Positions 26,277 through 43,659 of a stretch of DNA of 64,000 nucleotides are shown here, piece by piece. Position numbers and translations under genes: made by a program. The notes under the pieces are model-generated. The model was not told where the DNA came from. It saw only the letters and a list, made by a program, of their open reading frames with translations, and searched no databases. Position 1 is the first letter of the stretch, and each line of letters begins with the position of its first letter. The DNA lies in NCBI GenBank assembly GCA_900169235.1, contig FWCC01000177.1, positions 1 through 64,000 of the forward strand, read 5' to 3'. The DNA comes from Zarea fungicola. Its lineage: Eukaryota; Ascomycota; Sordariomycetes; Hypocreales; Cordycipitaceae.

Positions 26277-28783
26277 ATGCCTACCGCCGTGCCCCATTCG
26301 CATCGGCCAACCACAAAGGTCACTCACAAGCCTTTCAAGTCCAAGGCCGCTTCCAAGCATGAACTACGAGACCGTGCCAAGGGTACACAGATGATATATT
26401 CACTTCCCTATGTTGACAAAATTGCTGACTTTCTCTCGCAGGCCGAGTCCCCAACGAGCAAGGAACACGAAAGACACCCCACCAACAAGTCATGTCCAAA
26501 CTGGGCCGCCGAAACCAGGCCAAGCAGGCTCGCCTGACCAAGCACAAGGAACACCTCAAGGGCACTTCCATTTTCAACAACCGCGAGGGCGCTCCCAGAA
26601 TCGTTGCTGTTCTGCCTCTGTGTCCCGATGGCGATGCCGCCGCCGCTATCCAGCAGCTCAACGGCAGTGTCGACATTACCGCCGACATCCAGCCTGGCAA
26701 CTTCCGAGTCCCCGTCGACCGCTTCAAGCAGAAGCTGCAGTACATGCCACTCCAGCGCGATCTCACCGAATGTCTCGATGCGACCCGTGTCGCCGATTTC
26801 GTCGTCATTGTCCTTTCGGCGTCCGTCCAAGTCGATCCCCTCGGCGAGCTCATCCTGCGATCTGTAGAGAGCCAGGGCCTGTCCACCCTCTTCACCGTCG
26901 TTCAGGGCCTGGACAAGATTGAGCCTGCCAAGCAGCGCCCAAGCGTCGTCAACTCCCTCAAGTCATTCATCACACATTTCCACCCCGAGCAGGAAAAAGT
27001 CTACAACCTCGAAAACAGACAAGAGTGCGCCAATTTGATGCGCTCACTGTGCAACACCACTCCCAAGGGCGTGCGGTGGAGGGACGACCGCAGCTGGATG
27101 CTCGCCGAGGATATCCAATTTGCCAATACCGAGTCCGATTCGACCGTAATTACCGGCGTTGTCCGTGGTCGCGGCATGAAGGCCGACAGACTGGTGCAGA
27201 TTGGTGACTGGGGAACGTTTCAGATTGAAAAGATTGTCGCTGCGCCTCTCTCAAAACACGGCAAGGGCAATGCAACACAGACCGCTGAAGAGGAGTCCAA
27301 CCAGGTTCTCGACGAGCCTAGCGAGGACTGCGATGACCTGAATGAGCTTGCTCCCGAAGACGTCGTCATGGACACCGAGGAGGCCGAGGAGACCGTGGAT
27401 GCCACCGGTGAGACCAAGAAGGGTGTGCTGCTAGACGAACACCACTACTTTTCCGAGGAGGACGATACAGAGGAGCGCGCAAAGAGAAAACTCCCCAAGG
27501 GAACGTCCCAATACCAGTCCGCCTGGTACCTCGAGGACGTCTCCGACTCCGAGTCGGAGGGCGAGGACATGGACATGGAGGACACACACGCCGCCCAAGA
27601 CGAGGCCCGTCCCGAAGACGGCGTCGAGGGCTACGCCCAGCCCGAGCCCACCGAGGCCGGCCCCTCCGAGTACCCCCAGTCCGAGATGATGGAGGAGCTG
27701 GACGACGAGGCCGAGGCCGACCAGCTGGCCCAGTACCGCTCCAAGAAGCACGACGAGGCCGAGGACGACAAGGAGTTCCCCGACGAGGTGGAGCTGCACC
27801 CCAACGTGCTCGCCCGCGAGCGCCTCGCCCGCTACCGCGGCCTCAAGAGCCTGCGCACCTCGGTCTGGCAGACCGACGCCGACCGCGCCCACGAGCCCGA
27901 GGACTGGCGCCGCCTCCTCCAGACCGCCGACTACACCTCGTCCAAGTCGCGCGCCATCCGCGAGGCCCTCGTGGGCGGCGTCGAGCCGGGCACCCGCGTC
28001 CAGATTTTTGTCAAGGGCATGTCCCCGACCTTGGCCCAGTCGTGGCAGCCAACCTCCCCTGTAACCGTCTTCTCCCTCTTCCGCCACGAGCACAAGAAGA
28101 CGGCCGTCAACTACCTCTTCAACCTCAGCAGCGACTACGGCCGCTCCATCAAGTCCAAGGAGGAGCTCATTGTCCAGTGCGGGCCCCGCCGCATGGTCGT
28201 CAACCCGCTCTTCTCCCAGGCCGGCACCACCCCCAACGACGTGCACAAGTACGCCCGCTACCTGCACCCGGGTGGCTCCGCCATTGCCACCTTCATGGGC
28301 CCCGTCACATGGGGTTCTGTGCCGGTACTCTTCTTCAAGCGCACGACACCTGGCGAGGTGCTCAACGAGGGTGATGGGCCGAGCCCTGGACTCGCGCTCG
28401 TGGGCACGGGCACGGCGCTGCCGTCGTCGACGAACCGCGTCGTGGCCAAGCGCATCATCCTCACCGGCCACCCGTACCACATCAACAAGAAGATTGTCAC
28501 CATCCGCTACATGTTCTTCAACCGCGAGGACGTGGAGTGGTTCAAGGCCATGCCGCTGTGGACCCGGCGCGGCCGCAGCGGCTACATCAAGGAGCCGCTC
28601 GGCACGCACGGCTACTTCAAGGCCACGTTTGACGGACGCATCAACCCGCAGGACTCGATTGGCATCAGTCTATACAAGAGAGTGTGGCCGCGCAACGCTG
28701 TGCCGACGACGCTGCCGCAGCTGGATGCTAGTGCTGTGGCTGAGGTTGTGGTGGAGGGTGATGGTGATTTGGAAATGGCATAG
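26277..28783 (+). CDS. TSR1: Ribosome biogenesis GTPase-like protein TSR1
   Basis: Exons 26277-26382 and 26442-28783 join in frame to 815 residues. The start MPTAVPHSHRPTTKVTHKPF with KSKAASKHELRDRAKG matches TSR1, then VMSKLGRRNQAKQARL. The fold follows BMS1 and translational GTPases (IVAVLPLCPDGDAA where a P-loop would be), but the GTP-binding motifs are missing, as known for TSR1. An acidic middle region (residues ~270-440) is followed by the conserved C-terminal domain (TAVNYLFNLSSDYGRSIKSK; GHPYHINKKIVTIRYMFFN). TSR1 stays on pre-40S particles in the nucleolus and cytoplasm and blocks premature translation. The frame opposite the acidic region also stays open, but that is a composition effect. 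Confidence 0.95.
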
Positions 28784-29743
28784 GAAATGGCATAAAGACA
28801 GAAGAAAGAATGGTTTACAACTGGGATTTACATAGATAAAAAAAAAGGAGAGACAGGTCACGAAAGACGGGACTGACGCTATATCATGACAATGGACTAC
28901 GCATTAACGTGTTGGGATAACAAGGGTACTGATGGATTACAAAAAAAGCAGTAAAATGAAATTAAAATAATCAAATTCATCGCACTTTGAATGATGTGAT
29001 AGACTAACCCGGCAAATTCGGTTTCACATTGACCTGTTTTTGGTTCTGTTTATGAGATTGTCAAACTGGTGTCATGTCTGAATCCCGATGGTGTACATGC
29101 TTGACTGCCCTCCAGCTTCACTTCCGACTCTAGCATGCAAGTCGTCTTCTGGGTAATTTTCAAGACTGATTGTTCGTCCTGTCATTTCCGCTGCGGTATT
29201 TCTATTGCGTCTCTGCATTGTTTCTAATTGACGTCCCGCCTCGTCGCCGGTAGGCAGTGCTCCCCTCTTGTCGTGCGTTCCTTACCTTTACTTTCTTTAA
29301 CTTGTTCGCTAGCGAGTAACAATGTTGTTGATGGATTTAAAAAAAAAAAAAGATTAAAATTGATATAGTTAAATTCTTTTCACTTGATTAATGTAATGGA
29401 TGCTACCGCGACAAACTCCGGTTTTATGCAGCCTAGCAACACCATCAACAGGATGATCAACACCAATAGGATAGTCAGCACCAACAGGATAATAACCACT
29501 AACAGAGTAATCATCATCAACAAAATGATAACCGGCAATAAGATTAGAATTAAACATTAGAAAAAGTTAGAAAATAAATAAATAAAAACAGAAAAAAAAG
29601 AAAACGAAAACGAAAACGAAAAAAGAGAAAGGAAAAAGGAGAGGAAAGAGAAAAGAAAGGAGAAGGAAGAAAGAAAAGAAAGAAAAGAAAGAAAAAAAAA
29701 AGAAGAAAAAAAGAAGAAAAAAAGAAAAAAAAAAGAAAAAAAA
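28784..29743. other. Intergenic, low-complexity sequence
   Basis: 3' flank of TSR1 and of the microexon gene. At 29433-29540 there is an imperfect short tandem repeat based on ACCAACAGGATAATA. Read on the minus strand it gives a YPVG-D-type peptide repeat. No gene was recognised. Confidence 0.45.
29575..29743. repeat. Purine-rich low-complexity tract (A/AG runs)
   Basis: About 170 nt consisting almost only of A and G on the plus strand. It lies directly downstream of the stop codon of the minus-strand microexon gene, so it would be a polypyrimidine 3' UTR in the transcript. Confidence 0.7.
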
Positions 29744-30664
29744 TCATTCGTCCTTCTTATGTAAATAGTTAGAAGTTGCTTTTGGTGACAGTATCAGTTC
29801 GTTGAACCTTACAACAGGCTCAGCATCTGCGGCCTGATTCACGCACAGTTAGTGACAAGTTACAATGTTTGAAACAGTTAAATAAGTCACTTACCATTGC
29901 CGCCGCCACCGCCTCCATCTCCTTCTATATTTGATGTTAGTATTTAATGAAACCATGTATAAGAAGGATATACCACGAGGTCCTCCCTGATGGAGGCCTG
30001 GCTCCACGCCGTCTGTCAAATTTATTTAGTAAAATACATCGTTTCGCTGACTGATGGCGACATCATATCCTTTACTAGATTTGTATCCTCTACTTATGAA
30101 TGGACTTTTCTTACCATCACCTGCTTCAGCAGCTCCTGCAATATATGTCAGCCAACCCCGTAGATATACATATACCCCTTCACCTTACTTACCCGCTTTT
30201 CAGCCTGGAGTCTCTGTTTGCATATAGTGTGTTAGTGGCGGCACTTATGAATCAACGTTGTGTAAACCTACGCGAATCTCCATTTCTAGCCTCTGTTAAT
30301 AGTTAGTTATTAGTTAAAAATATGAGCACACATAGTGGCGATAAAACGGGCATAAACTTACCGCGGCTCTTTCCAACAGCCGCTGCATATTGCAGAGTGT
30401 CAGTCGAAAATTATCCTAGTTGCTGTAAAAAGGGAAAGAACAAAACGCATCATCTTACGTTCTTTTTCTTCTGGAAGGCCTATTAAAACTTGTTAAATAA
30501 CTGGCCTTTTTATGCTAAAAAAAATCAATACTGACCGCCCTCTCGTCATTGCTGACGGGGTTGGCCCCCCCCCCCGCGATTCTTTGGTCTATAACTATGG
30601 AGGGAGTTAGCCCATTGCCAATAAAACTCGTCGTCGTCCACACTGCTTACAGATCAGGTGCCAT
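29744..30664 (-). CDS. Microexon gene: 97-residue coiled-coil protein from ten short exons
   Basis: Exons in transcript order: 30651-30664 (ATG, MAPD plus part of Leu), 30536-30551 (completes Leu, NDERA), 30459-30479 (AFQKKKN), 30362-30382 (RLLERAA), 30272-30292 (RLEMEIR), 30193-30213 (RLQAEKR), 30115-30135 (ELLKQVM), 29974-30012 (13 codons, TAWSQASIREDLV), 29895-29924 (10 codons, KEMEAVAAAM) and 29744-29833 (AADAEPVV to a KKDE end and TGA). All nine introns are 49-102 nt, most with GTAAG-like donors and all with CAG/TAG acceptors. The summed coding length is 294 nt, an exact multiple of three. Five successive exons are exactly 21 nt and phase 0, and their second codon is Leu (Phe in the first), so each encodes one heptad of a predicted leucine-zipper-like coiled coil. 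There is no signal peptide and no basic DNA-binding region. Similar sequence further upstream (to ~31190) may be untranslated exons. The family is not recognised. Confidence 0.72.
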
Positions 30665-32205
30665 TTCTATCAAGATACAATCCTGCTTTAGTATAGGAAA
30701 ACTATTAAAACAACCAAAATAGTTTGACGTACTTGCTGGTTGTTCTGTTCTGTTCCCGGGAGTGTTAGCAATGCACATCATGATTAGTGGGAGCCCCGGG
30801 ACGAAAACTGTTACTGGAGGGTGGCATGGTTGCAGGGCAAAGTCACTTACGATTGTTTCTTCGTCTGCAAGAGATGTCAGACGGTGTAATATAAATAAAT
30901 AAATGGATAGTGTAAAAACTGACCTTGTTTAGTTTGTCTTCTTGAAATGTGGTTAGCTAAAGTCAACACAGGTCCTTTTGTTTTGCGTCTGGCAGTGTAA
31001 AGGTAACTAGTACGTACGAAGTCTTGAGGGCACTATTCAGGGCGTTCAAAGTTAGCACGAAATTACCTTTGTGGGCAGTAATAGTAATCTTGAACTTACC
31101 GCCGGGCGATGATGATTTGCTCGGAGGAGAAGAAAAAGGAATAGAAAACACCGGCGAGGATAAACTGGATGTACTCAAGATACCGCCCGCGCCTGCCAAA
31201 GGAAAACTGTAGCTTTTGTGCCCACGCTGGTTAATTTCCAGAGCTGCGATCCATCGCGAAACGCTTGATAAAATCTACTTTGTACCCAAATTGTCCAAAA
31301 AGAGGGCCACGAGAGTGAATTGGCGCTCCTCTGCATTTTTCTAGTGTTGGTGGTCGGCTCAGCCTAGCACAACGAATAAACCGCGCCACAATCATCACCA
31401 ACCCAGATTCATATACGTTTTGATATCCAAAGGTCATGAGTTCAATAAATAGACACACGCAAGCAATGAAAAACGGCCCTTCATTTTACACCAACTGCGC
31501 GATCATCGTGGTCGAATTCGGATTTATGCGCGCAGATATTCCAAGGCATCCAGCTACCCAACCCCAATATTCATCGAACTCGGCAGTTCGTGACTTTAAC
31601 GTAAATATTTTTCTGTACAGAAGCTACGATCGCGTTCTCGCTACGTACGTCTCCTGATAACTCCCATCAAATCTCAGCCTGACCAGTCATCTCGCGTGCA
31701 GCTTGTGTATGCCGGTTCATCCTGTAATCGGAATTGAACCCTGAAGCCAGACAGAGAGGTAAAGAGAAAAACGAAGAAAGAAAAACAAAAAAAAAGAAAA
31801 TTGATGAAGAAAAAAAACAAAATAGGAAAGCGACGGCAAGAGTAGAGACAAAGAGAAAGTAGAAGAGGAGAAGGACGAAGCAGAGAAAATCGACAAAGGG
31901 AAAATCAACAAAGGGAAAATCAACAAAGGGAAAATCAACAAAGAGAAACAAAAGCAGAGAAAATATATGGAAGGGAAGCAGAAAGGAAATCAAGATAAAG
32001 CAAAGAGAGCTAATAAAGAGAAAAAGAAGAAAAGAAAGGCGACGAAGAAAAAACATATCCTTCACCAGTCTTGAGCGACACCGCCATGCAAGATTGCGGA
32101 AGCTTGACGAAGGATATAAAATGATCGGACAATCTCTCAACGGCGCGTCTAAATTCCTTTTCATTCCAAATTCTAATTCTCTCGACGACGACATTCATCA
32201 TCACA
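30665..32205. other. 5' flank of the microexon gene and of the 2EXR-domain gene
   Basis: Segments around 31070-31200 and 31275-31330 resemble the region 42240-42530 beside the related locus, so the duplication extends beyond the coding exons. Possible extra 5' exons ending at GT donors are seen at about 30732, 30851 and 31065 (minus strand), but their frame is not shared between the two loci. The stretch 31740-32050 is A/G-rich and contains a tandem repeat. Confidence 0.4.
31885..31945. repeat. 15-bp tandem repeat, about four copies
   Basis: The unit GGGAAAATCAACAAA is repeated in tandem, with one G/A variant in the first copy. It sits inside a longer purine-rich tract 5' of the 2EXR-domain gene. 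The minus-strand reading (VDFPF repeats) is a low-complexity artefact. Confidence 0.75.
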
Positions 32206-33195
32206 ATGACGACAACTTTTCACCCTTTTCCACTCTTACCACCCGAGCTGAGACTCGAGATCTGGCGGCTAGCAATACGCGATACAGATGTTGCCGGAGT
32301 AAATTTTGTTGAGCTGGACTGGCACCACACCTATTCAGACCGGAATAGCCTCCAACCTACTGGGTGTTATAATCCCGACCCTGGCCTAATTCCTGCAACA
32401 TGCGGGACGGAGCGCGAGCCTTGCGGCCAGTGCGACCATGGCGACTATAATACCCGCCATAGGTGCCTACGGAAAAGTAAATCTTCCTATCTTTTCGACA
32501 GTGGACTTTGGGACGCCTGCAAAGAGTCCCGCGCGGTCATGTTGGGCAGGTTTCGCGGCCCCAAGAGGCAACTGCAGCCAGAGGATGAATGGGATGAAGC
32601 CGTCTGGCCAGCCCATGCGACCAGTGCCTTTATCAGTAAAGGTAACAGTGTGCGGCATTTCACAATGTTCCCCGGCAGGGATTTATTCTTCGTTGAATCA
32701 GCCGAGCTGCTTCGTGCTGCAGGGGGCGAGAAGGAGTTGTGCATGGATACGTGCTTGGACCCTAAGCGCCATTATCTTGACGACTTGCAGCATTTCGCCA
32801 CCCGGTTCAACCCAGTCTGGGACAATGAGGAGCGCCAAGGTTCAAGCCCTGCATACATGCAAATATGGTTAACGTTTGCTGCCTCGCTTCTTAAAGGCGA
32901 CGGACAGACCCTTTATATCGTCGACAAACGGCTTGTGCGACGACAAGAGGTACCTGCGAGCTCGCTTTTGCGATACGAAGACGTCTTTCATGCCAGTGAT
33001 GGCATATATGTAGACATTGAGGAGGAAGAAGAGTGGTGCTACTCTGAGGACGGGAAAGTGACCCTAAATCCGCCAATCTTTGAGTTTATAAACACGATCA
33101 ACGATTACGTTGATCAACATGTCGCTGGGGACTCTGCCTTGATCAGCCTCCTGGGTTGGGAGCCCAACATTGGTAAGCACATTATCCCTGAATAA
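32206..33195 (+). CDS. 2EXR-domain protein
   Basis: A 329-residue open frame starting MTTTFHPFPLLPPELRLEIW, the N-terminal signature of fungal 2EXR-domain proteins. The remainder includes LWDACKESRAVML, which is the usual second conserved block (residues ~100-112), and an acidic C-terminus. The family is large, lineage-expanded and of unknown function in filamentous ascomycetes. The last codons before the stop read NIGKHIIPE, and GTAAGC lies within this end. Splicing from ~33171 to an acceptor near 33209 would replace the last few residues, so the exact C-terminus is uncertain. Confidence 0.75.
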   Translation: MTTTFHPFPLLPPELRLEIWRLAIRDTDVAGVNFVELDWHHTYSDRNSLQPTGCYNPDPGLIPATCGTEREPCGQCDHGDYNTRHRCLRKSKSSYLFDSGLWDACKESRAVMLGRFRGPKRQLQPEDEWDEAVWPAHATSAFISKGNSVRHFTMFPGRDLFFVESAELLRAAGGEKELCMDTCLDPKRHYLDDLQHFATRFNPVWDNEERQGSSPAYMQIWLTFAASLLKGDGQTLYIVDKRLVRRQEVPASSLLRYEDVFHASDGIYVDIEEEEEWCYSEDGKVTLNPPIFEFINTINDYVDQHVAGDSALISLLGWEPNIGKHIIPE

Positions 33196-34834: not shown

Positions 34835-36261
34835 GGCTGTGACGGTTTGAGCTGCAAGAAGACTCTCTTTTCTGATTAACAAAGATAAGCAATGAGCAGA
34901 GCTGCGGGAGAAAGACGGCGGGATACTACTTGTAAGTCATGTCGGCAGTGGGGTTTGGGGGCGGGGTGAGGTATAGATAAGTCGACTGGCCAATAGATAG
35001 CTCATGGCTTGCCAATCGGAGGCGACCGGCTGGCTCTCATTTCGCCGAATGTCTCGGAGTTATCCAACTAGCAGGAGCTTGATGGGTATTTTGAGTATAC
35101 ATGTCAACAGAGTACGGAGTAGAACCTAAAGACAGCAGTTACAGAGTATACCGTCACGGGCTTTGCCCCGGCGTGCCTCGATCAATTCCCCAGATGGGTA
35201 CTCTACTTGTGTGTAACCACGGCTTTGTAGGATTCAATTTATAATTAGCATCTGCCGAGCGGATATAGCTTAGGGCACCGGCAAGAGCCGAGACGGCTCA
35301 GTTTGGAACAGGAGAGAGTAATTTACACCCGATCGATGAATTGCGTAGATGATGTGCCATTATCTGCGTTTCCGAGACGTCAAAATGAATTGATTCGCTT
35401 CCTTAACCTCTTTGGCCCAGAAAGACGAATTGGGAGGATGATGGACCATGACATTTTTGCGGTGGGGATTGGACATGTGCGTCCTGCTCTAACTAACTAG
35501 TTGGTTAGACTTTAGAGGGTACCTACATGCTGCACACGAACATTCTCGGACTCATGCCATCCTGCCTGCAAATAGCCCCTTTCTCTTGGCGAAGAAGCTT
35601 GATTCTAAATGATTCCCCAGCGAGAGACTCGCACCGTGACTTAATGGTTGATATGCGGTCTGACTGGCGAGGATGCTCGAATGCATGTATTCTTATTATG
35701 GCTGCCCCTGCATGTTTCAAGCGGGGTACTCCTGCATCTCGAACAGCAGTAACGATGCCACCACCAACTCGCTTGCTACTTTACTCATATTCGTTGCAGT
35801 TGATTCACCTACTCCAGCTGCTTCGTAGGGAGCCGGCGACATTACTCAAAAATTCGCCATCGGCTTCCAGCAAGTCCCAAGGTTGCTCCCCTATCCCTAG
35901 CCTTGCAATTTCGCAGGCAATATGGACTGCAACGAGCCCTCTCAACTAAACGCTGATGAAACGTTCATCAGTGCTGCACCTCTGATAGGCGGGCAAGATT
36001 TTTTTACTGCGCCAATGGAGCCGCCAAAGTACTGACCGCAAGGCTGTGACGGCACAGCGTGAGCCCTCCTTGAAGGGCTTTGCATCAAGCTGAGCAATCC
36101 CGACCAGGGTCCGCTGCAGGTTGGCCCATCTGGGCGGCTAACCGCAGAGAACCCCCTCTTCAAGGCCAAACACTTTTGGCGAAATGATGTTATTATTGCA
36201 AAATGAAATTCGACATGATAGCTTCATTTGTATTCGGTGTCATCTATAGAATATCATCGCG
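34835..36261. other. Intergenic, 1.4 kb, possible decayed gene inside
   Basis: Upstream of UreG and of the ankyrin gene. The minus strand of about 35527-35950 yields protein-like pieces in different frames (VASELVVASLLLFEMQEYPA, then KHAGAAIIRIHAFEHPRQ) that resemble the middle region of fungal Zn2Cys6 transcription factors. Stops separate them. No DNA-binding domain was found. Confidence 0.3.
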
Positions 36262-39200
36262 ATGCGACCGTCCACCCTCCTGTTGTGCCTCGCCGCAGTC
36301 GCCAGTGCCAGCTGGTGGGATGACTTCTCCAACAACCTCGCCTCAGACCTGGCGCCCATCTTGGCACTGTTTGGCGAGCAGGTGACCAAACAGTTCCTGA
36401 GCGAGTCAACCACACGACTCGACACCTTCATCTTCGCCATGGTGCCCCTGGGTATCCTCACCGCCGTCGTCTCCGCTCTGCGTGTTTGCGGCGGCCCGTC
36501 TCTCCGCGCCTTCATCGGCCGTGCTCAAGAGGGCAGCGGCGTCGCTGAGGCTGAGCTATGCTCCTCGACTAGCCGCGACGTTTGCGAGCTCTACCACAAC
36601 GGCGCCGTCGTCCGAGTCTTTGGCCGTCCCAAGATTGCCGAGATCGTCCACGACGCCCGCGGCGCAAGCTTCTACGAGGACGGCGAGAACACCGTCGCGG
36701 GCAAGGCCGGTATCTACTCGTTTCAGAACTACATCGAAGGTACTGTCGCGGCAAATTCTGGGTGGTTGGAGAACGATTTGCCTGTCGGAGAGCACCCCAA
36801 GGACAGACTTCTCTTTCGCCAGTGGAAAAAGATTCTTGAGCGTTTTCACATTCGCCGCCCGGGTGGCGATGGCAGCTCGCTGAACTTTGCCCCGAATCCC
36901 AACCTATCTCTCAATTACGGAATCAAGAAGCATTCTCCATTCGTATCTTGGGGGGCGGCATTTATGGGATTCGCCCTGCAAGCCTCGATTCTGTGGTTTG
37001 GCGGTCTTGCTACCTACAGATGGCGCTGGAAGAAGAATGACGCCTATGCTCCTGACTGGGCTTTTCCCATAATGGCCTTCGGGACCGTCTTGCAGTGCGT
37101 TGGCATGTACTGGTGCGCATACTTGATAGAGGTAAGCACGAAAGAGAGAGTCTTTCGTCGCCGCCAAGCTATGCGCGACCCGTCTTCCTCCGCTCTGTTT
37201 GTTGTGCAGCCTGGTAATCAAGTCGTCGGCGACCAGACGTTTGACTCGTTTTCCTACAGCGACGTCGGCGACCCCATCAAGGAATACATCACGTCATGGA
37301 AAGACCCTCTACAGGAAGCCGCCCCGAAAACAGCTGCCGCGAGCGTCGCTGTCACAATGGTTGGATTCGTCCTACAGTTCGTCGGCCTACGGGCCATGCA
37401 CTCGGCCGTATCCGTCTTTCAGCTTGGTGCAATATTGATGATGAGCCTCATCCGCTCGATGCTGCGCACGCAACGGCTTGCGCGCGAACAGAATCTACTC
37501 TATAATCGTCCAGATCAGGTGCAAGGCCATGAGCTAGATTGGCTTGCCTTGCAAATCGACGAAACCCAAATGCCTTTTCAGGAATCCTCCAAATCGTCCG
37601 CAAACGACACGGATAGCACTGCTTCATCGGACTTGAATGCTGAACAGCCCAGTGCTCACTCTATCAAACTTATAGAGGCTGCTGAAGCTGGTTGTGATGC
37701 AACGGTGCATGTCTGCGGCATTACCTATTCAGGACCGGCAGCTGCCTCTTCAAATGTGGAAAAGGCTATAAAAGCCAAGCATATTACGTGGTTGAAGGAA
37801 AATGAATGCCCAAAGGGTTCAGAGATACCACATTATGGAGCACGACTGTTTTATTATCGCGCCAGGCTTTCTCGACTTACCAGCCAGTCATTGGTGTCCT
37901 CCGGGCTGTCTAATGCGTGGGGTGAAGATCTTGTGAAAGCCCGATCGCAGGCACGTCTACTGAAGAATGCAATTGAGGCAAGCGCCACCATCATCTTTTC
38001 TCGTGCCAACATAAAGTCTGGCTGGAAGAACGCACGACTTTTTACTTGGTCATTCAGTACCCTTCCTTGGTGTCCAGGCTCGATAGAAGCACCACAGGGC
38101 TCGCGCATACATTTGTCTCTCACAAGGTCTTCAGTGACAGAAAACAAGTCATCTTCATGGCATATCGATCAAAGCTCCATGGAAGCCGTCGTCGGCTTAT
38201 GCGCATGGTCCATACAGTCTGACCCAGTGACCGAGGAGAAGGACGGTTTCGGGAACACCGTGTCGAGGGCAGCAGAAGTAGCAACTGAACGCATACTAGC
38301 GGTGACAGACAGGCAGGAGAACCTCAAGCAGATTGAGACAGAACTGAAGTTTTGGACAGAAAACTTTCCAGAAGCCACATTTCATAAAATACTTTCCCCA
38401 TCACGGAGCCCCGAGAAAACGAAGAGCGTAGGCAAAACATCAACATCCAACACTCTGTGGGAGAGATTGGACCTATCCAATGAGCAGTTTACGCCTGCAG
38501 TACCGTCACTTTTGAGTCAGTCAGTCGCATTATGGCGATTTGTACGATTTTCTGGCTGGCGCAATCTAGTATCATTTACTCCGCCTCCTACTGCGCGCTC
38601 ACCCGCTTTCACCAGTTCTCTTCACCTTCCCCCTACATTAGCTCCGCATACTTTTACACCTCGAACCTCCCAACTGCCTGCGACTCCGATATTCGGCGGA
38701 GCAAAACTATTTGCATTAACTACTGGGACTGGGCTCCGCTCTCCCGCTGCGTTCTGCGCTCACGAGGTTTACCATTCATTTATTAGTGCCGCCACATCCG
38801 CCATTGCGTCCATCGGTGGCAAATTGACTATTTCGTCTGGCGGAGAAGGCCTGTTTCTTGACAATGACGTAATATCCAAACTGGTAGACTGCTTTGAAGA
38901 CAGCGGACTCGGATCAAGGCAAGACGGATACTTGATTCTCGTCTCAACTCTTCGAAGCCGAGCCATGCTCAAGTTTTCAAGGGAGACTCTCTCAGATATT
39001 ATGAGTATCGCAGAAACTCATAAAAGAGCGACTGAATATGAAAAGGCAGAAGAGATACTGCAATGGGCATGGGATGCCAGCAATCACATGCACATTGACA
39101 CTTCCAACGGCCCTGTCACCGCCGACCGCGACGCGATTATGTTAGAGCTCGGTGAGCTCTACCGGCTTACCATGTTTTCTGCAACGGAGTCGGCGCGTAA

Positions 39201-41154
39201 ATTTAGCCAAAAAGGAGTATCTTGGATGCGACTTGTCAAAGAGGACACGCAGGCCCTCATTTCCCCAGCGACACGCGAGATTATTGACCGCTATCTGGAG
39301 CTCTCCGTCAGGGATACATGCGATAGCGTGCCGTCATCTGAAGGTGTAATTCAAGCGATATCTAACAAAGACCGAATACAGACCCTATGGCTCCTTAGCC
39401 AAGAGGGTATACAGCTGCAAACAGCAGATTCGGACGATCGCACCGTGCTTTCGTGGGCATCCCAACAAGGCTGGGAGGAGGTTGTCAAAGCCGCCCTGGA
39501 TATTGGCTCCAACGTCGACGCAGGTGATAATGGTGGCCGGACTGCGCTCAGCTATGCGGCGGAAAGCGGGCATGTTGAAATTATGCAAATCTTGATGAAC
39601 CACCAAGCGCTACCAATATTAGAGGACAACTCTCGGCGCCCTCCCCTGTCATACGCCGCCGCGACTGGCTCTGGTGCCGCCGTTGATATGTTACTGAGAG
39701 ATCGCAGGGTTACTGCGGAGACCAGAGACGTAGATGGGCGCTCGCCGCTATATTTAGCAGCTCATATCGGCGCGACAGAGGCAGTAAAACTCCTACTGAA
39801 GCGTACAGGTAAGACGATTGATGAAGCTTCGAAGGGGATCACTCCACTAGTCGCTGCGCTCAAGAACAAACACCAGGAGACTGCACAAGTTTTAATTGAT
39901 CATGGTGCAAATTGGGACTTGAGGATTGAAGGCTTTGGGCCATGGACGTGGGCATCTCAAAGCGGAAACTGGATCTCTGCTGAGTTTATCTTGAGGCAAA
40001 AAAACCTGCAGGAAGCCAAGGAGGCCAACCATGGAAACAATGGCAACACTGGCAACAGTGACAACCATGACAACAGTGACAACAAAGGCAACAATGGCAA
40101 CGATAATGAAGCCAAAGCAGCCAAAACCAGTCCTAGCAGGATATTAAAGACGGCGATTTCTATCGAACTGACGCCTGGTAAGAGTTATCTAACTAGGAGT
40201 TCTCGAAGTGAATATGAGGAAGAGGTGGCACGTGTGGAGCGGAGAAGCGAGTGCCTAGCACTGAGAGGGGGCCTGACACTGAGGCAATTCGATGCCGAGG
40301 ATAAGGAAGTCGCCATAACAACTGAAACAGCAGAAATGCTGCTTGCAGAAAAGTTGAGTGTCAGCGGCTATAAAGTCATCGTCGAGAACGGGCAAGTGGA
40401 AGTCTCCTCTCTTGGGTTTACTCCGCCCCTATCCGCCTTTCCCCTAATAGCCCGCCAGGTGGGGGAGAGCTTCTACATTACAGAAAAGATGTGGTTAACA
40501 GTCGTCGATGGATCGACTATTCCACATGAGTCAACTTTGAACATGCTACTCGAGTGTGGCGGAGACTGTATCGAAATCACAGAGCGAGTTGTAGACGCCG
40601 TGGTAAAACAGGATGAGGCAAGCTGTATGAAGCTACTTTTGGACAGAAGAGTCAATGCCGTTCCCGTTTCGGATGCCATTCTGCGGATCATTGCGGCCAG
40701 CGGATATGTAAACCTCCTGCGAGGCTTGCGGGACAAGGCAGACAGGACGATTCCGGCCGAGCTATGGCGGGCGGCGGCGCTTTACAGGAATGCCGCGGCA
40801 GGCGACGCCCAAGCGGTGCAGCGGCTGCTCAAGGAGGGAGCTGATCCCAACACCTTTTCGCATCGGGGCTGGACTCCTCTCCATGCGGCGGTTTATGCGA
40901 GTCGCACGGAGACGGTGCGCGTCCTGCTTCAGTGGCCGGGGACCCAGGTCGACGCGCGGCGGCCAGGGGATTCCTCAGCGCTTTCCGAGGCGGCTTATAA
41001 GAGTTTGGACATTGCGCAACTGCTGCTAGACGCCGGCGCGGATCCGTGCCTTGCGGACAGTTCTGGCGAGAGCCCGATGAGCGATATGACGCGGCGTAAG
41101 AACTGGGAGATGGTCAAGATGATGGAGGCGTATGCGGCTCCAAGTCTTTTGTAG
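36262..41154 (+). CDS. Large membrane protein with ankyrin repeats, 1630 residues
   Basis: A single uninterrupted exon. Residues 1-17 look like a signal peptide (MRPSTLLLCLAAVASAS). Hydrophobic segments follow near 55-75, 228-250, 268-290 and 358-395. Between them lies a block with VVRVFGRPKIAEIVHD. A long unrecognised region runs to ~1050. Ankyrin repeats occupy ~1056-1250 (GRTALSYAAESGHVEIMQIL; GRSPLYLAAHIGATEAVKLL). An Asn/Gly/Asp-rich linker (~1258-1285) and a region with ITERVVDAVV-type helical repeats come next. A second ankyrin set lies at ~1506-1625 (GWTPLHAAVYASRTETVRVL). Such membrane-anchored ankyrin proteins recur in hypocrealean genomes without known function. The ankyrin and helical repeats recall NLR-like sensors, but no NACHT or NB-ARC was seen. 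Confidence 0.85.
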   Translation: MRPSTLLLCLAAVASASWWDDFSNNLASDLAPILALFGEQVTKQFLSESTTRLDTFIFAMVPLGILTAVVSALRVCGGPSLRAFIGRAQEGSGVAEAELCSSTSRDVCELYHNGAVVRVFGRPKIAEIVHDARGASFYEDGENTVAGKAGIYSFQNYIEGTVAANSGWLENDLPVGEHPKDRLLFRQWKKILERFHIRRPGGDGSSLNFAPNPNLSLNYGIKKHSPFVSWGAAFMGFALQASILWFGGLATYRWRWKKNDAYAPDWAFPIMAFGTVLQCVGMYWCAYLIEVSTKERVFRRRQAMRDPSSSALFVVQPGNQVVGDQTFDSFSYSDVGDPIKEYITSWKDPLQEAAPKTAAASVAVTMVGFVLQFVGLRAMHSAVSVFQLGAILMMSLIRSMLRTQRLAREQNLLYNRPDQVQGHELDWLALQIDETQMPFQESSKSSANDTDSTASSDLNAEQPSAHSIKLIEAAEAGCDATVHVCGITYSGPAAASSNVEKAIKAKHITWLKENECPKGSEIPHYGARLFYYRARLSRLTSQSLVSSGLSNAWGEDLVKARSQARLLKNAIEASATIIFSRANIKSGWKNARLFTWSFSTLPWCPGSIEAPQGSRIHLSLTRSSVTENKSSSWHIDQSSMEAVVGLCAWSIQSDPVTEEKDGFGNTVSRAAEVATERILAVTDRQENLKQIETELKFWTENFPEATFHKILSPSRSPEKTKSVGKTSTSNTLWERLDLSNEQFTPAVPSLLSQSVALWRFVRFSGWRNLVSFTPPPTARSPAFTSSLHLPPTLAPHTFTPRTSQLPATPIFGGAKLFALTTGTGLRSPAAFCAHEVYHSFISAATSAIASIGGKLTISSGGEGLFLDNDVISKLVDCFEDSGLGSRQDGYLILVSTLRSRAMLKFSRETLSDIMSIAETHKRATEYEKAEEILQWAWDASNHMHIDTSNGPVTADRDAIMLELGELYRLTMFSATESARKFSQKGVSWMRLVKEDTQALISPATREIIDRYLELSVRDTCDSVPSSEGVIQAISNKDRIQTLWLLSQEGIQLQTADSDDRTVLSWASQQGWEEVVKAALDIGSNVDAGDNGGRTALSYAAESGHVEIMQILMNHQALPILEDNSRRPPLSYAAATGSGAAVDMLLRDRRVTAETRDVDGRSPLYLAAHIGATEAVKLLLKRTGKTIDEASKGITPLVAALKNKHQETAQVLIDHGANWDLRIEGFGPWTWASQSGNWISAEFILRQKNLQEAKEANHGNNGNTGNSDNHDNSDNKGNNGNDNEAKAAKTSPSRILKTAISIELTPGKSYLTRSSRSEYEEEVARVERRSECLALRGGLTLRQFDAEDKEVAITTETAEMLLAEKLSVSGYKVIVENGQVEVSSLGFTPPLSAFPLIARQVGESFYITEKMWLTVVDGSTIPHESTLNMLLECGGDCIEITERVVDAVVKQDEASCMKLLLDRRVNAVPVSDAILRIIAASGYVNLLRGLRDKADRTIPAELWRAAALYRNAAAGDAQAVQRLLKEGADPNTFSHRGWTPLHAAVYASRTETVRVLLQWPGTQVDARRPGDSSALSEAAYKSLDIAQLLLDAGADPCLADSSGESPMSDMTRRKNWEMVKMMEAYAAPSLL

Positions 41155-41350: not shown

Positions 41351-42234
41351 CTACAACTCCAACTTCTTATAATAATTAGTCAAAAATAAACAAGCATATA
41401 TAATAGTGGCGATAAAACGGGCATGAACTTACCTCTGCTTTTTCAAGCAGCGCCTGCATATTGCAGACAGTTAGTCGAGAAATATCCCAGTTACTATATA
41501 TATATATATATATAAAAGGGAGGGGGGAGGGGGGGGCATTATCTTACGTCCTCCTTATTTTGGAGCGCCTATTAAAACTTGTTAGATGGCTTGAATCTCC
41601 ATGGTAAGAATTGTTACTGACCTCAGCATCTCTTCGCCGCTTTTGGGAGCAAGTCAGTAGCCAGATACTTTAATGCAAACAGCTCAACATACCACATTCT
41701 CGTGCACCTGTTTCCTTGTTAGCCAATCTTATGTTATTATCCATAAAATATGAATAAAGACTTACTACCAACCGCCCGTTGAGCGGGACTCGTTGCTATC
41801 ATTTCATTAATATTTCCAATATAGAATAATTTGAGGCGAGCAACACATAATGGTTCTTCGGCCGCCACCGCCCCCGCCCCCGCCGCCTCAATGATGGGCC
41901 TCCCGCCCCCGCCGACTTCAAGATACATGTTAATCGAAATATTACGGGCTATTACTTCGGCGAGACCTACAAAGCTTCTGGTCTGCTTAAAGCCAAATGG
42001 TGTTAGCTAGGTATACATTCAAGGTCATTGGCGTGGAAGCCTACCGTCTGGGTCGACGCCTTGCGCTGGTAATAATAGATCATTAGCATGTAGAAAAGAC
42101 TGTGTGGTGCGTGAGTAGACAAACAACGCCGCCGCCCCGTGTTTTGGTCGCCACTGTTTGAAGTTCGCCCATTGCCGATAACTTTCGTCGTCCACAGGAG
42201 GATTGGAAAGCTGCTTACAGGTCTGGGACCACTT
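41351..42234 (-). pseudogene. Rearranged, truncated relative of the microexon gene
   Basis: Exon-like units in transcript order: 42219-42234 (16 nt; GTG where the intact copy has ATG, encodes VVPD), 42045-42065 (21 nt), 41971-41985 (15 nt), 41766-41795 (30 nt), 41693-41707 (15 nt, VHENV), 41622-41639 (18 nt, RRRDAE), 41548-41568 (21 nt, ALQNKED), 41433-41453 (21 nt, ALLEKAE) and 41351-41365 (15 nt, KLEL then TAG). Each is bounded by plausible donor and acceptor sites, and all but the first are multiples of three. The ALQNKED, ALLEKAE and KLEL units align with AFQKKKN, RLLERAA and RLEM of the intact gene at 29744-30664, and flanking intron sequence is also similar. A TAG replaces the following Glu codon and the next donor site is lost. 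The middle units are absent from the other copy. I judge it non-functional, although expression as a shorter peptide is possible. Confidence 0.5.
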
Positions 42235-43659
42235 CTTTCAAGAAAGAAATTACCTCTGTGGGCAATAACAATAATCTTGAGCCCATTGGTGGTTGATGAT
42301 GGCTTGTGCAGAGATGAAGAAAAGGGAACAAGACCGACGAGGACAAACGGATGTATTCAAGACGCTGCCTGCAACTGCCAGCACTGCCAACACCTGCCAA
42401 CACCTGCCAGCCAAAGGACCAACTGGCTCATGTTGGTCCGTTGCTAGAGCACCGCCTCTAATATGCTTGCGAAAAATGTACCGTGTACCCAAACTTTCAG
42501 AAGGGAGTTACGAGTGTGAATGGCGCTCCTTCATGTATCACACAAGCTGCTGCTGCTGCTGGAAATGGCCTCAGCTTGCCATCTTTCCTATTTATAGCTA
42601 GCGAGCGATGCATCTCAGGCCTATCGTTCCCGGGTTTGGCGGCAATAACCCCCGGAAATGGTGGGCATGGCCCGTAAATTGTGGCAATCTTGCAGGCGTT
42701 CTAGCGTGTATACCGGTAAAACCAAAATGCCTTGATTTATTTCAAGCGAGATGTTTATTTATTTATTTTCTAATTTTCTAATTTTCCTTCTATTTTAGAG
42801 AACCATTGTAATTTATTGCAGTCTACATAAGAGACGATTCTAGCCATGGAAGCCTGTAGAAATCGCGGGAAGCTAGCGTACGGGCATGGCAGCCTGGATC
42901 GGTTGTGTACCTTGAACACACACGCTATGTGTATCCCATGACATTTGTCTTGGATACTTTATACTTGCTTTGCGGGACCAGATTGAGATGGAGAGACTTG
43001 ATTTCAACATTCTGACGATATGAGTTTCAAACCCCTAGACGGCCTGGAAGTCGTAGCGCAAATACCCTTGCAAGAGCCCAACCGGGTCGACACCACGACG
43101 CATATGAGACTGATGTGCTGCGAGTCTGCTGCCCATATCTCCTCCACGTTCGCGGACACAAATACACGCACCCGTCGGATGAAAAGCACGGTAATGGGTC
43201 TGCGTCTGCGGTTTCATTTCTCCGTAGCGAGGTCCCACATCCATCTTGACCAAAGAAACGTCTCGACACCCAACACCCCTGCACATAGCGGGCTCCTCTC
43301 AATCTACGAATGGATTTGCATCTTTGTATCATCCACCTTTGCCGCCCGCTTTGCAAGCCCAAGGTATAGAACGGCCAACTATGACAGGGTCAAGAGCTTC
43401 CACCTGCTCCATTTCGGACCGCACTCTGCGCTTCTTCGTAGTCGGTGTGCAGCCTGATTGCATTCAAGCGCTGGATAATCTAGTCACTCCATAGAGGTCC
43501 CTCGCCATGCAATATGCCAAACTGTAGTAAAGAACTCCCCCCCTCTTTCATGCTGCTGCTCTTTGCTCTCATCTTTACCTCTGCCATCTCCCACTCTCAC
43601 CTACAGCCTACACTGCTTTGCCTTGCTTTCATGTTCCAGATCTACCCACACCACTTGTC
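42235..43659. other. Intergenic, upstream of UDP-galactopyranose mutase
   Basis: 42240-42530 resembles the 5' flank of the intact microexon gene. 42613-42740 is one copy of a repeat that recurs downstream of the mutase gene. From 42760 to 43659 I see no gene. The plus-strand frame at 43020-43457 has no domain. Confidence 0.4.
42613..42740 (+). repeat. Repeat copy upstream of UDP-galactopyranose mutase
   Basis: Shares, in the same order and orientation as 45731-45850, the blocks CTCAGGCCTA, GTTTGGCGGCAATAACCCCC, GGGC, CGTGTATACCG versus CGTGTGTACCG, AAA, and TGCCTTGATTTA. The two copies flank the mutase gene as direct repeats about 3.1 kb apart. Confidence 0.6.

Follow-up and report, generated by a model that had tools for sequence, protein, structure and literature searches.

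Genes assembled from series of very small exons are reportedly known from schistosomes, as the micro-exon genes (MEGs) of DeMarco et al. 2010, and from truffles, as the NACHT-ANK genes with 3-bp exons of Iotti et al. 2012. Hypocrealean fungi, among which Trichoderma is counted, usually have genes with few introns, rarely with runs of tiny equal exons, the fungal spliceosome is thought to define introns, not exons, and in the plant MIKC MADS family the K-domain exons each hold more than one heptad. Here we describe a gene in a stretch of 64,000 nucleotides from the hypocrealean fungus Zarea fungicola, one of the Cordycipitaceae and a relative of the insect-infecting Cordyceps (assembly GCA_900169235.1, contig FWCC01000177.1, positions 1 to 64,000), called the window below, in which five consecutive 21-nt exons, named a to e, each correspond to one heptad of a predicted coiled coil (Table 1). 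An earlier note on this DNA had drawn a model of ten small exons without naming a strand; the strand of the gene is the minus strand. Judged from its sequence, the gene is real, intron-dense and structurally unusual.

By analogy, the schistosome MEGs and the bicycle genes of aphids appear to be the nearest architectures (here and below, what is said of published systems refers to the cited passages of each source). MEGs contain runs of short (≤36 bp) symmetric exons, removable without a change of frame, and the present locus resembles them in such a run, in being duplicated and in having no homologues found outside (PMC8293314); most coding exons of the predicted model are likewise symmetric and at most 36 nt long (21, 21, 21, 21, 21, (39), 30 and 21 nt), and the exons predicted at the 5′ end, though short, lack this symmetry. 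It may differ in that no hydrophobic leader is seen by eye in the model used, and it differs in that only two loci turned up; MEG exons are not described as heptads in the passages cited (PMC8293314); no homology to known MEGs was found, nor any homologue at E ≤10 among proteins of ~53-170 residues. The bicycle genes also have many small internal exons, nearly all in one phase, and sequence homologues that are hard to find, but their internal exons are in phase 2, they have ~17 exons on average, and they form a large family implicated as plant gall effectors (PMC9168663). Among fungi, the NACHT-ANK genes of Tuber melanosporum reportedly have dozens of 3-bp alternatively spliced exons (PMC4986451, PMC3689799, PMC9815663, PMC10197012), and what they share with this gene is the setting in a filamentous ascomycete, the tiny symmetric exon series in one gene and, should its microexons be alternatively included, a splicing that diversifies a modular protein region; they differ in having 3-bp exons in a large NLR-type receptor family, in contrast to 21-nt heptad exons in a protein of ~90 residues. 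Functional microexons are called previously undescribed in filamentous fungi in the cited passage of PMC11121469, which reports one of 20 nt in Xlr2 of Trichoderma virens; it was likewise missed by annotation, but is one asymmetric switch exon of a regulator of the zinc-cluster type. In Phanerochaete, close to one third of the P450 genes have microexons of 2-10 residues (PMC1184071), and the K-domain of the plant MIKC MADS proteins, a long-known transcription factor family in difference to the present gene, also spreads a coiled-coil heptad region across several exons, where exon duplication is held to have lengthened the helix and altered oligomerisation (PMC10178880). The earlier note knew of no described fungal family with this design, and this stands for heptad-length microexons, as no fungal gene with them was found among the matches listed in the open-licence literature, but it does not extend to fungal genes with tiny exons in general, of which the truffle and T. 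virens genes are known cases.

Each exon of the ten-exon model matches the DNA letter for letter on the minus strand, and the joined frame encodes, as the earlier note had it, 97 amino acids, reading MAPDLNDERA AFQKKKN RLLERAA RLEMEIR RLQAEKR ELLKQVM TAWSQASIREDLV KEMEAVAAAM AADAEPVVRFNELILSPKATSNYLHKKDE. The splice sites it had called standard are indeed GT..AG in all nine introns, whose lengths are 49-102 nt; a CTRAC/CTAAT branch motif lies 11-19 nt ahead of the AG in six of them, the nearest such motif of intron 1 is 56 nt from the AG, and none was found in introns 2 and 7. The acceptors of exons b-e score 6.4-7.7, and moderate donors follow exons c (3.6) and e (3.3).

Such a chain of splice sites is very rare by chance, as was found in scans where donors, branch points and acceptors were scored with fixed weights after the general fungal consensus, neither trained on this genome nor fitted to the locus. 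A search of the whole window for 21-nt units returned a single one on the plus strand; the seven that it returned on the minus strand all sit in the gene (b, c, d, e and a further unit, AADAEPV) or in its paralogue (two). With a laxer acceptor threshold, picked so that exon a is admitted, and introns of 45-125 nt, the gene has five consecutive stop-free phase-0 21-nt exons, against a longest run of 0 in 975 and of 1 in 25 of 1000 dinucleotide shuffles; when any 3n exon length of 9-45 nt was allowed, the longest run of the shuffles was 2 (in 4/1000). Ignoring the frame and admitting exons of 6-60 nt, the scan linked an unbroken series of 12 introns (31099 to 30013). Such a series never exceeded 3 in 500 shuffles or 2 elsewhere in the window (74 plus-strand tiles and the minus-strand tiles clear of both copies), and its maximum was again 2 in 94 tiles laid over another 49,401 bases of the genome, taken as eight stretches with the last few hundred bases of most of them outside the tiles. 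The 5′ part alone gives a chain of 6 introns (at most 2 in 500 shuffles). When the thresholds were varied, the chain of the gene stayed at 12 in three settings and dropped to 5 in the strictest, while in the window outside both copies no chain was longer than 2, except at the laxest setting, where the longest had 4; counting three weaker introns too, the chain amounts to 15 short introns within 1.36 kb.

The coding status of the gene is well supported by composition. The seven internal exons (174 nt) have 60% GC vs 39% in the introns, and their GC by codon position (.60/.36/.83) is similar to that of the neighbouring Tsr1 (.64/.42/.81) and CobW/HypB/UreG-family (.63/.44/.80) genes, the ankyrin (.56/.47/.57) and 2EXR (.56/.42/.56) neighbours being flatter. 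Their codon score is 6.2 vs -31.8 (sd 10.1) in base shuffles, none of 2000 scoring as high, and among 20000 random segment sets of the same span none was equally GC- and GC3-rich. The remaining two frames contain stops, although an open frame alone says little, given that ~10% of shuffles are also open. By post hoc arithmetic, eight consecutive 3n exons (21, 21, 21, 21, 21, 39, 30 and 21 nt) would come up in a non-coding transcript about once in 6,500.

The coincidence of exon units with heptads, which the earlier note had proposed, is borne out: the residues at position 2 of the five 21-nt exons are F, L, L, L and L, and the exon junctions cut the heptad between b and c each time, so that with position 2 taken as d, the a positions are K, A, I, K and V. 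A column of only Leu or Phe over these 35 residues, such as characterises a bZIP zipper, has P =.010 vs residue shuffles, and the contrast between the a and d positions, taken across the entire product, is of borderline significance (P =.049, 147/3000 shuffles). Ahead of the zipper, bZIP proteins carry the basic-region signature N-x7-R/K; the place of its Arg/Lys is here occupied by Lys, which is allowed, but the Asn place, which we take to be the one just past the alignment with c-Jun by one residue, holds Glu, so that the modelled product does not show this signature. This alignment, with the c-Jun zipper (PDB 1fos and others), is the closest likeness to a solved structure, ungapped over 36 residues at E = 0.16, with Leu at each seventh residue in both. 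Pfam listed six matches up to E = 10, none of them a bZIP profile, and searches of Pfam, PDB and NCBIfam gave weak matches only, none at the curated cut-off where one exists.

Most likely, though with considerable room for doubt, this is an intact, intron-dense protein-coding gene, present as a single intact copy, the constitutive splicing of which would give a small leucine-zipper-like dimerising protein. Its introns would be removed constitutively, and the mRNA translated into a protein of roughly 85-100 residues with five heptads at its centre, carrying Leu/Phe at d and K/A/I/K/V at a; these may form a short helix, similar to a leucine zipper, which pairs with a second copy of itself or with a partner, in the manner of the zipper half of a bZIP protein minus its DNA-binding half, and its most likely role would be that of a small dimerising regulator. 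Given that all exon boundaries cut the heptad at the same place, the loss or gain of exons during evolution, or their occasional skipping, would alter the length of the coil by whole heptads and keep its register.

Both ends of the gene can be drawn in more than one way. The upstream region common to both copies (102/135 aligned bases identical) is probably non-coding, because it has indels of 1 and 4 nt between them. The predicted 5′ microexons that follow, separated by introns of 67, 77, 59, 101 and 66 nt, have a GC of.405, like introns (.387), and contain no ATG ahead of 30664 in their joined sequence, for which reasons they are probably a 5′ untranslated region or spliced leader, and a coding frame in them was dropped. 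The ATG at 30664 is thus the first in the joined predicted leader microexons; it is not kept in the paralogue, while the GTAAGC donor of exon 1 is. By eye, MAPDLIAGGGANPVSNDERA has no hydrophobic stretch, with the start of the N-terminus ambiguous. Exons 1 and 2 are the weakest stretch of the model, acceptor 30551 scoring 2.0, and the exon ahead of the heptads may begin at 30551 (16 nt), at 30581 (46 nt, in frame) or at 30588/30594 (53/59 nt); the latter two are strong acceptors, 30594 scoring 6.5 with CTAAC 13 nt upstream, but both are out of frame with ATG 30664, and the in-frame GC by codon position (.67/.60/.93) favours a longer exon. A coding reading of intron 1, VDDDEFYWQWANSLHSYRPKNRGG, was prompted by a seemingly in-frame likeness to the paralogue by eye; a search with it matched its own place only, and we set it aside because the segment carries a good intron in the intact copy (GTAAGC .. 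CTAAC .. CATAG) with the donor kept in both copies, although the corresponding acceptor of the paralogue is weak (score 2.0), which counts against a firm dismissal. At the 3′ end, AADAEPV (GC.62) is followed by 57 nt with a GTAAGG donor, CTAAC and an ATAAG end (GC.35, codon positions.37/.32/.37), and the 90-nt last exon is therefore probably a 21-nt exon, an intron and KDE-stop; whole or split, the frame is kept. The GC-rich (.69) 39-nt exon has a GTATAT donor scoring -0.8, and the best parses skip it.

The paralogue is a degenerate and 3′-truncated second copy on the same strand, with matching exons 11,071-11,089 bases away, and some of its features weigh against the explanation above. Its chain has 5 introns (at most 4 in 500 shuffles, a length seen in 2/500), the 18-nt exon gives way to one of 8 or 10 nt in its best parses from ATG to stop, and its exons a and b (ALQNKED and ALLEKAE) are both 21 nt long with splice sites retained; its unit c, however, reads KLEL and then a stop with no donor there, so that this copy is broken, its 3′ part has been replaced by low-complexity DNA, and its 5′ parts look rearranged relative to the first copy. 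Leu occupies position 2 in all three comparable units, which is suggestive only. There is no sign that exons were better kept than introns between the copies: exons a and b are identical at 28/42 positions vs 144/193 in three introns (P =.34), a comparison that omits unit c (10/21), the stretch from exon 1 to intron 1 (74/113) and the upstream region, and once unit c is included the exons (38/63) diverge faster than the introns (P =.037), while amino-acid retention in exons a and b (7/14) equals the neutral expectation (P =.28). To these points are added several from the gene itself. The start is ambiguous, the best unsupervised parses beginning at ATG 30778 or 30781 and not at 30664; an 11-G tract, read as C on the plus strand, lies at 30565-30575 in the uncertain exon ahead of the heptads, and since the choice of 3′ splice sites compatible with the frame depends on how long this tract really is, variation in it between strains or through assembly is of consequence; the frame-free scan favours acceptor 30470, 9 nt inside exon a (2.9 vs 1.9), which would leave this exon 12 nt long, and we read it as 21 nt because the paralogue retains the outer acceptor only. 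Lys at two a positions means that the coil would be weak or partner-dependent, the resemblance to c-Jun is not significant, and the 97-residue product gave 24 candidate homologues, none at E ≤10, in a search of 5.8 billion proteins confined to ~53-170 residues.

These observations could also mean that both copies represent an orphan that is young or in decay, an intron-rich gene that used to be coding and is now drifting, with the second copy dead and the first following. Such a fate would account for the stop in the third unit of the paralogue, the loss of the rest of its 3′ half and its rearranged 5′ parts, for the absence of surplus amino-acid retention and of better-kept exons, and for the strong out-of-frame acceptor and the 11-G run of the first copy; the core frame of this copy is, however, open, its splice sites are strong, and its codon composition is like that of conserved neighbours, and we consider the orphan explanation rather unlikely. 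A search by DNA of the 43.1-Mb, 456-contig assembly, which skips simple repeats, found no third copy, the sole further match being a 20-base simple-repeat stretch inside the second one.

Somewhat less likely again is that the heptad microexons are alternatively included to give coils of varied length and partner preference, as has been proposed for schistosome MEGs and truffle NACHT-ANK genes. Skipping would keep the frame, as the earlier note had foreseen, since all eight symmetric exons are in phase 0 and 0/256 inclusion combinations contain a stop, and three of the exons, a (30470), d (30204) and e (30120), contain a competing acceptor that is in frame. However, the acceptors of exons b-e score as in constitutive exons, though exons c and e have moderate donors; use of the competing acceptor found within exon c (30285, score 6.7) would disrupt the reading frame; and alternative splicing affects ~6% of fungal genes, a figure quoted in PMC11121469. 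If skipping were regulated, the locus would be a micro-exon gene of a fungus whose splicing unit and coiled-coil unit are one and the same, and would yield zippers one heptad apart, with differing e/g charge and several partners, an outcome that we also regard as unlikely.

The remaining explanations are much weaker. A non-coding spliced RNA, for instance a snoRNA host gene with tiny throw-away exons, would fit the exons that diverge between the copies at least as fast as the introns and the intron-like GC of the 5′ microexons, but it leaves the equal 21-nt exons, the consecutive 3n exons and the coding GC3 unexplained, and is very improbable; no Rfam family (Rfam 15) matched at its gathering score in the window, the three matches in the locus (E between 4 and 8.1) all being far under theirs, and we rejected the snoRNA host gene since no intronic snoRNA of these families was found. 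Slightly more improbable still is an ordinary coiled-coil gene cut up by introner-type intron insertion, which the short introns at very high density would suggest: the 14 introns of this gene, compared with one another, have a single 11-nt match between two of them, at a splice donor, and are not near-identical, and equal same-phase 21-nt pieces in heptad register are unexpected from random insertion. The growth of the gene by duplication of heptad exons, inferred in the earlier note, found no support either, as the five 21-nt exons are no more alike than their codon-shuffled selves (summed pairwise identity 77/210 vs 78 expected, the Leu/Phe codon being kept) and the introns are mutually unrelated; only an ancient, erased exon duplication could be true. 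That the exons were picked by eye out of splice-like noise is hardly credible, for although several drawings are possible at the 5′ end, for the 39-nt exon and for the last one, the unsupervised scans arrive at identical 21-nt exons, save that exon a comes out as 12 or 21 nt, and comparable chains are absent from shuffles and from the remaining window.

Table 1. Features of the microexon gene and its paralogue (positions in the window)
Feature	Position	Strand	Remarks
Microexon gene	about 31.2-29.7 kb	minus	sequence statistics
Upstream region common with paralogue 42246-42380	31059..31198	minus	probably promoter/5′ leader; first strong donor GTAAGT at 31099
Predicted 5′ microexon series outside the ten-exon model	30651..31099	minus	frame-free chain scan
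5′ microexons	31032-31018 (15), 30940-30924 (17), 30864-30851 (14)	minus	predicted
5′ microexon	30749-30733 (17 nt; alternatives 12 or 3)	minus	predicted
5′ microexon containing the model's ATG	30666-30651 (16 nt)	minus	predicted
Exon 1 of model	30664-30651 (14 nt)	minus	ATG GCA CCT GAT CT
Exon ahead of heptads	30536..30594	minus	encodes ..IAGGGANPVSNDERA; 3′ splice site uncertain
Exon 2 of model	30551-30536 (16 nt)	minus	
Exon a	30479-30459 (21 nt)	minus	AFQKKKN; 12-nt alternative via acceptor 30470
Exon b	30382-30362 (21 nt)	minus	RLLERAA
Exon c	30292-30272 (21 nt)	minus	RLEMEIR
Exon d	30213-30193 (21 nt)	minus	RLQAEKR
Exon e	30135-30115 (21 nt)	minus	ELLKQVM
Introns between 21-nt exons	30458-30383, 30361-30293, 30271-30214, 30192-30136	minus	
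39-nt exon	30012-29974	minus	TAWSQASIREDLV; weak donor, may be skipped
30-nt exon	29924-29895	minus	KEMEAVAAAM
Last exon of model	29833-29744 (90 nt)	minus	
Probable sixth 21-nt exon AADAEPV	29813..29833	minus	21-nt unit in scan; GC.62 vs.35 in following 57 nt
Probable terminal exon KDE-stop	29744..29755	minus	AAG-type acceptor, if last intron spliced
Degenerate, 3′-truncated paralogue (copy 2)	41351..42380	minus	upstream region, donor and microexons, then KLEL-stop
Conserved GTAAGC donor of paralogue	42218	minus	
Paralogue microexons	41707-41693 (15), 41639-41622 (18), 41568-41548 (21), 41453-41433 (21)	minus	

As to the surroundings, the genes on either side of the locus are the open reading frames (ORFs) of Tsr1 (26429-28783, plus strand), a ribosome-biogenesis protein with identities of 87% (Cordyceps javanica) and 86% (Aphanocladium album, Akanthomyces muscarius), and of a 2EXR-family protein (32125-33195, plus strand) with 62% identity to a Zarea fungicola protein. 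Purine-rich low-complexity tracts flank the gene on both sides, at 29560-29745 and 31760-32050, the latter with a 15-nt unit repeated at 31895, 31910 and 31925. In the paralogue, a possible 21-nt exon was seen by eye at 42065-42045, with a weak donor (GTAGGC), and at 42242-42382, in the conserved upstream region that corresponds to 31055-31200, this copy has, also by eye, a good ATG context (CACCAATGGGC) that the first copy is without; from this ATG to the GTAAGC donor it reads MGSRLLLLPTEVISFLKEVVPDL. At 36250-41151 (plus strand), one uninterrupted frame encodes 1634 residues with ankyrin repeats; Pfam lists no NACHT or other non-ankyrin domain for it, and its end is ~200 bases away from the paralogue.

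As a gene of some fifteen exons within 1.4 kb, including five that are heptad-long and in one phase, it would be a clean natural test of exon units as protein-structure units, and it would also test how 21-nt exons are dealt with by the fungal spliceosome. Genes of this kind would probably escape standard annotation, just as the Xlr2 microexon did (PMC11121469, in the passage cited), so that a fungal gene class may be unseen; a scan combining splice chains with GC3 could find such genes.
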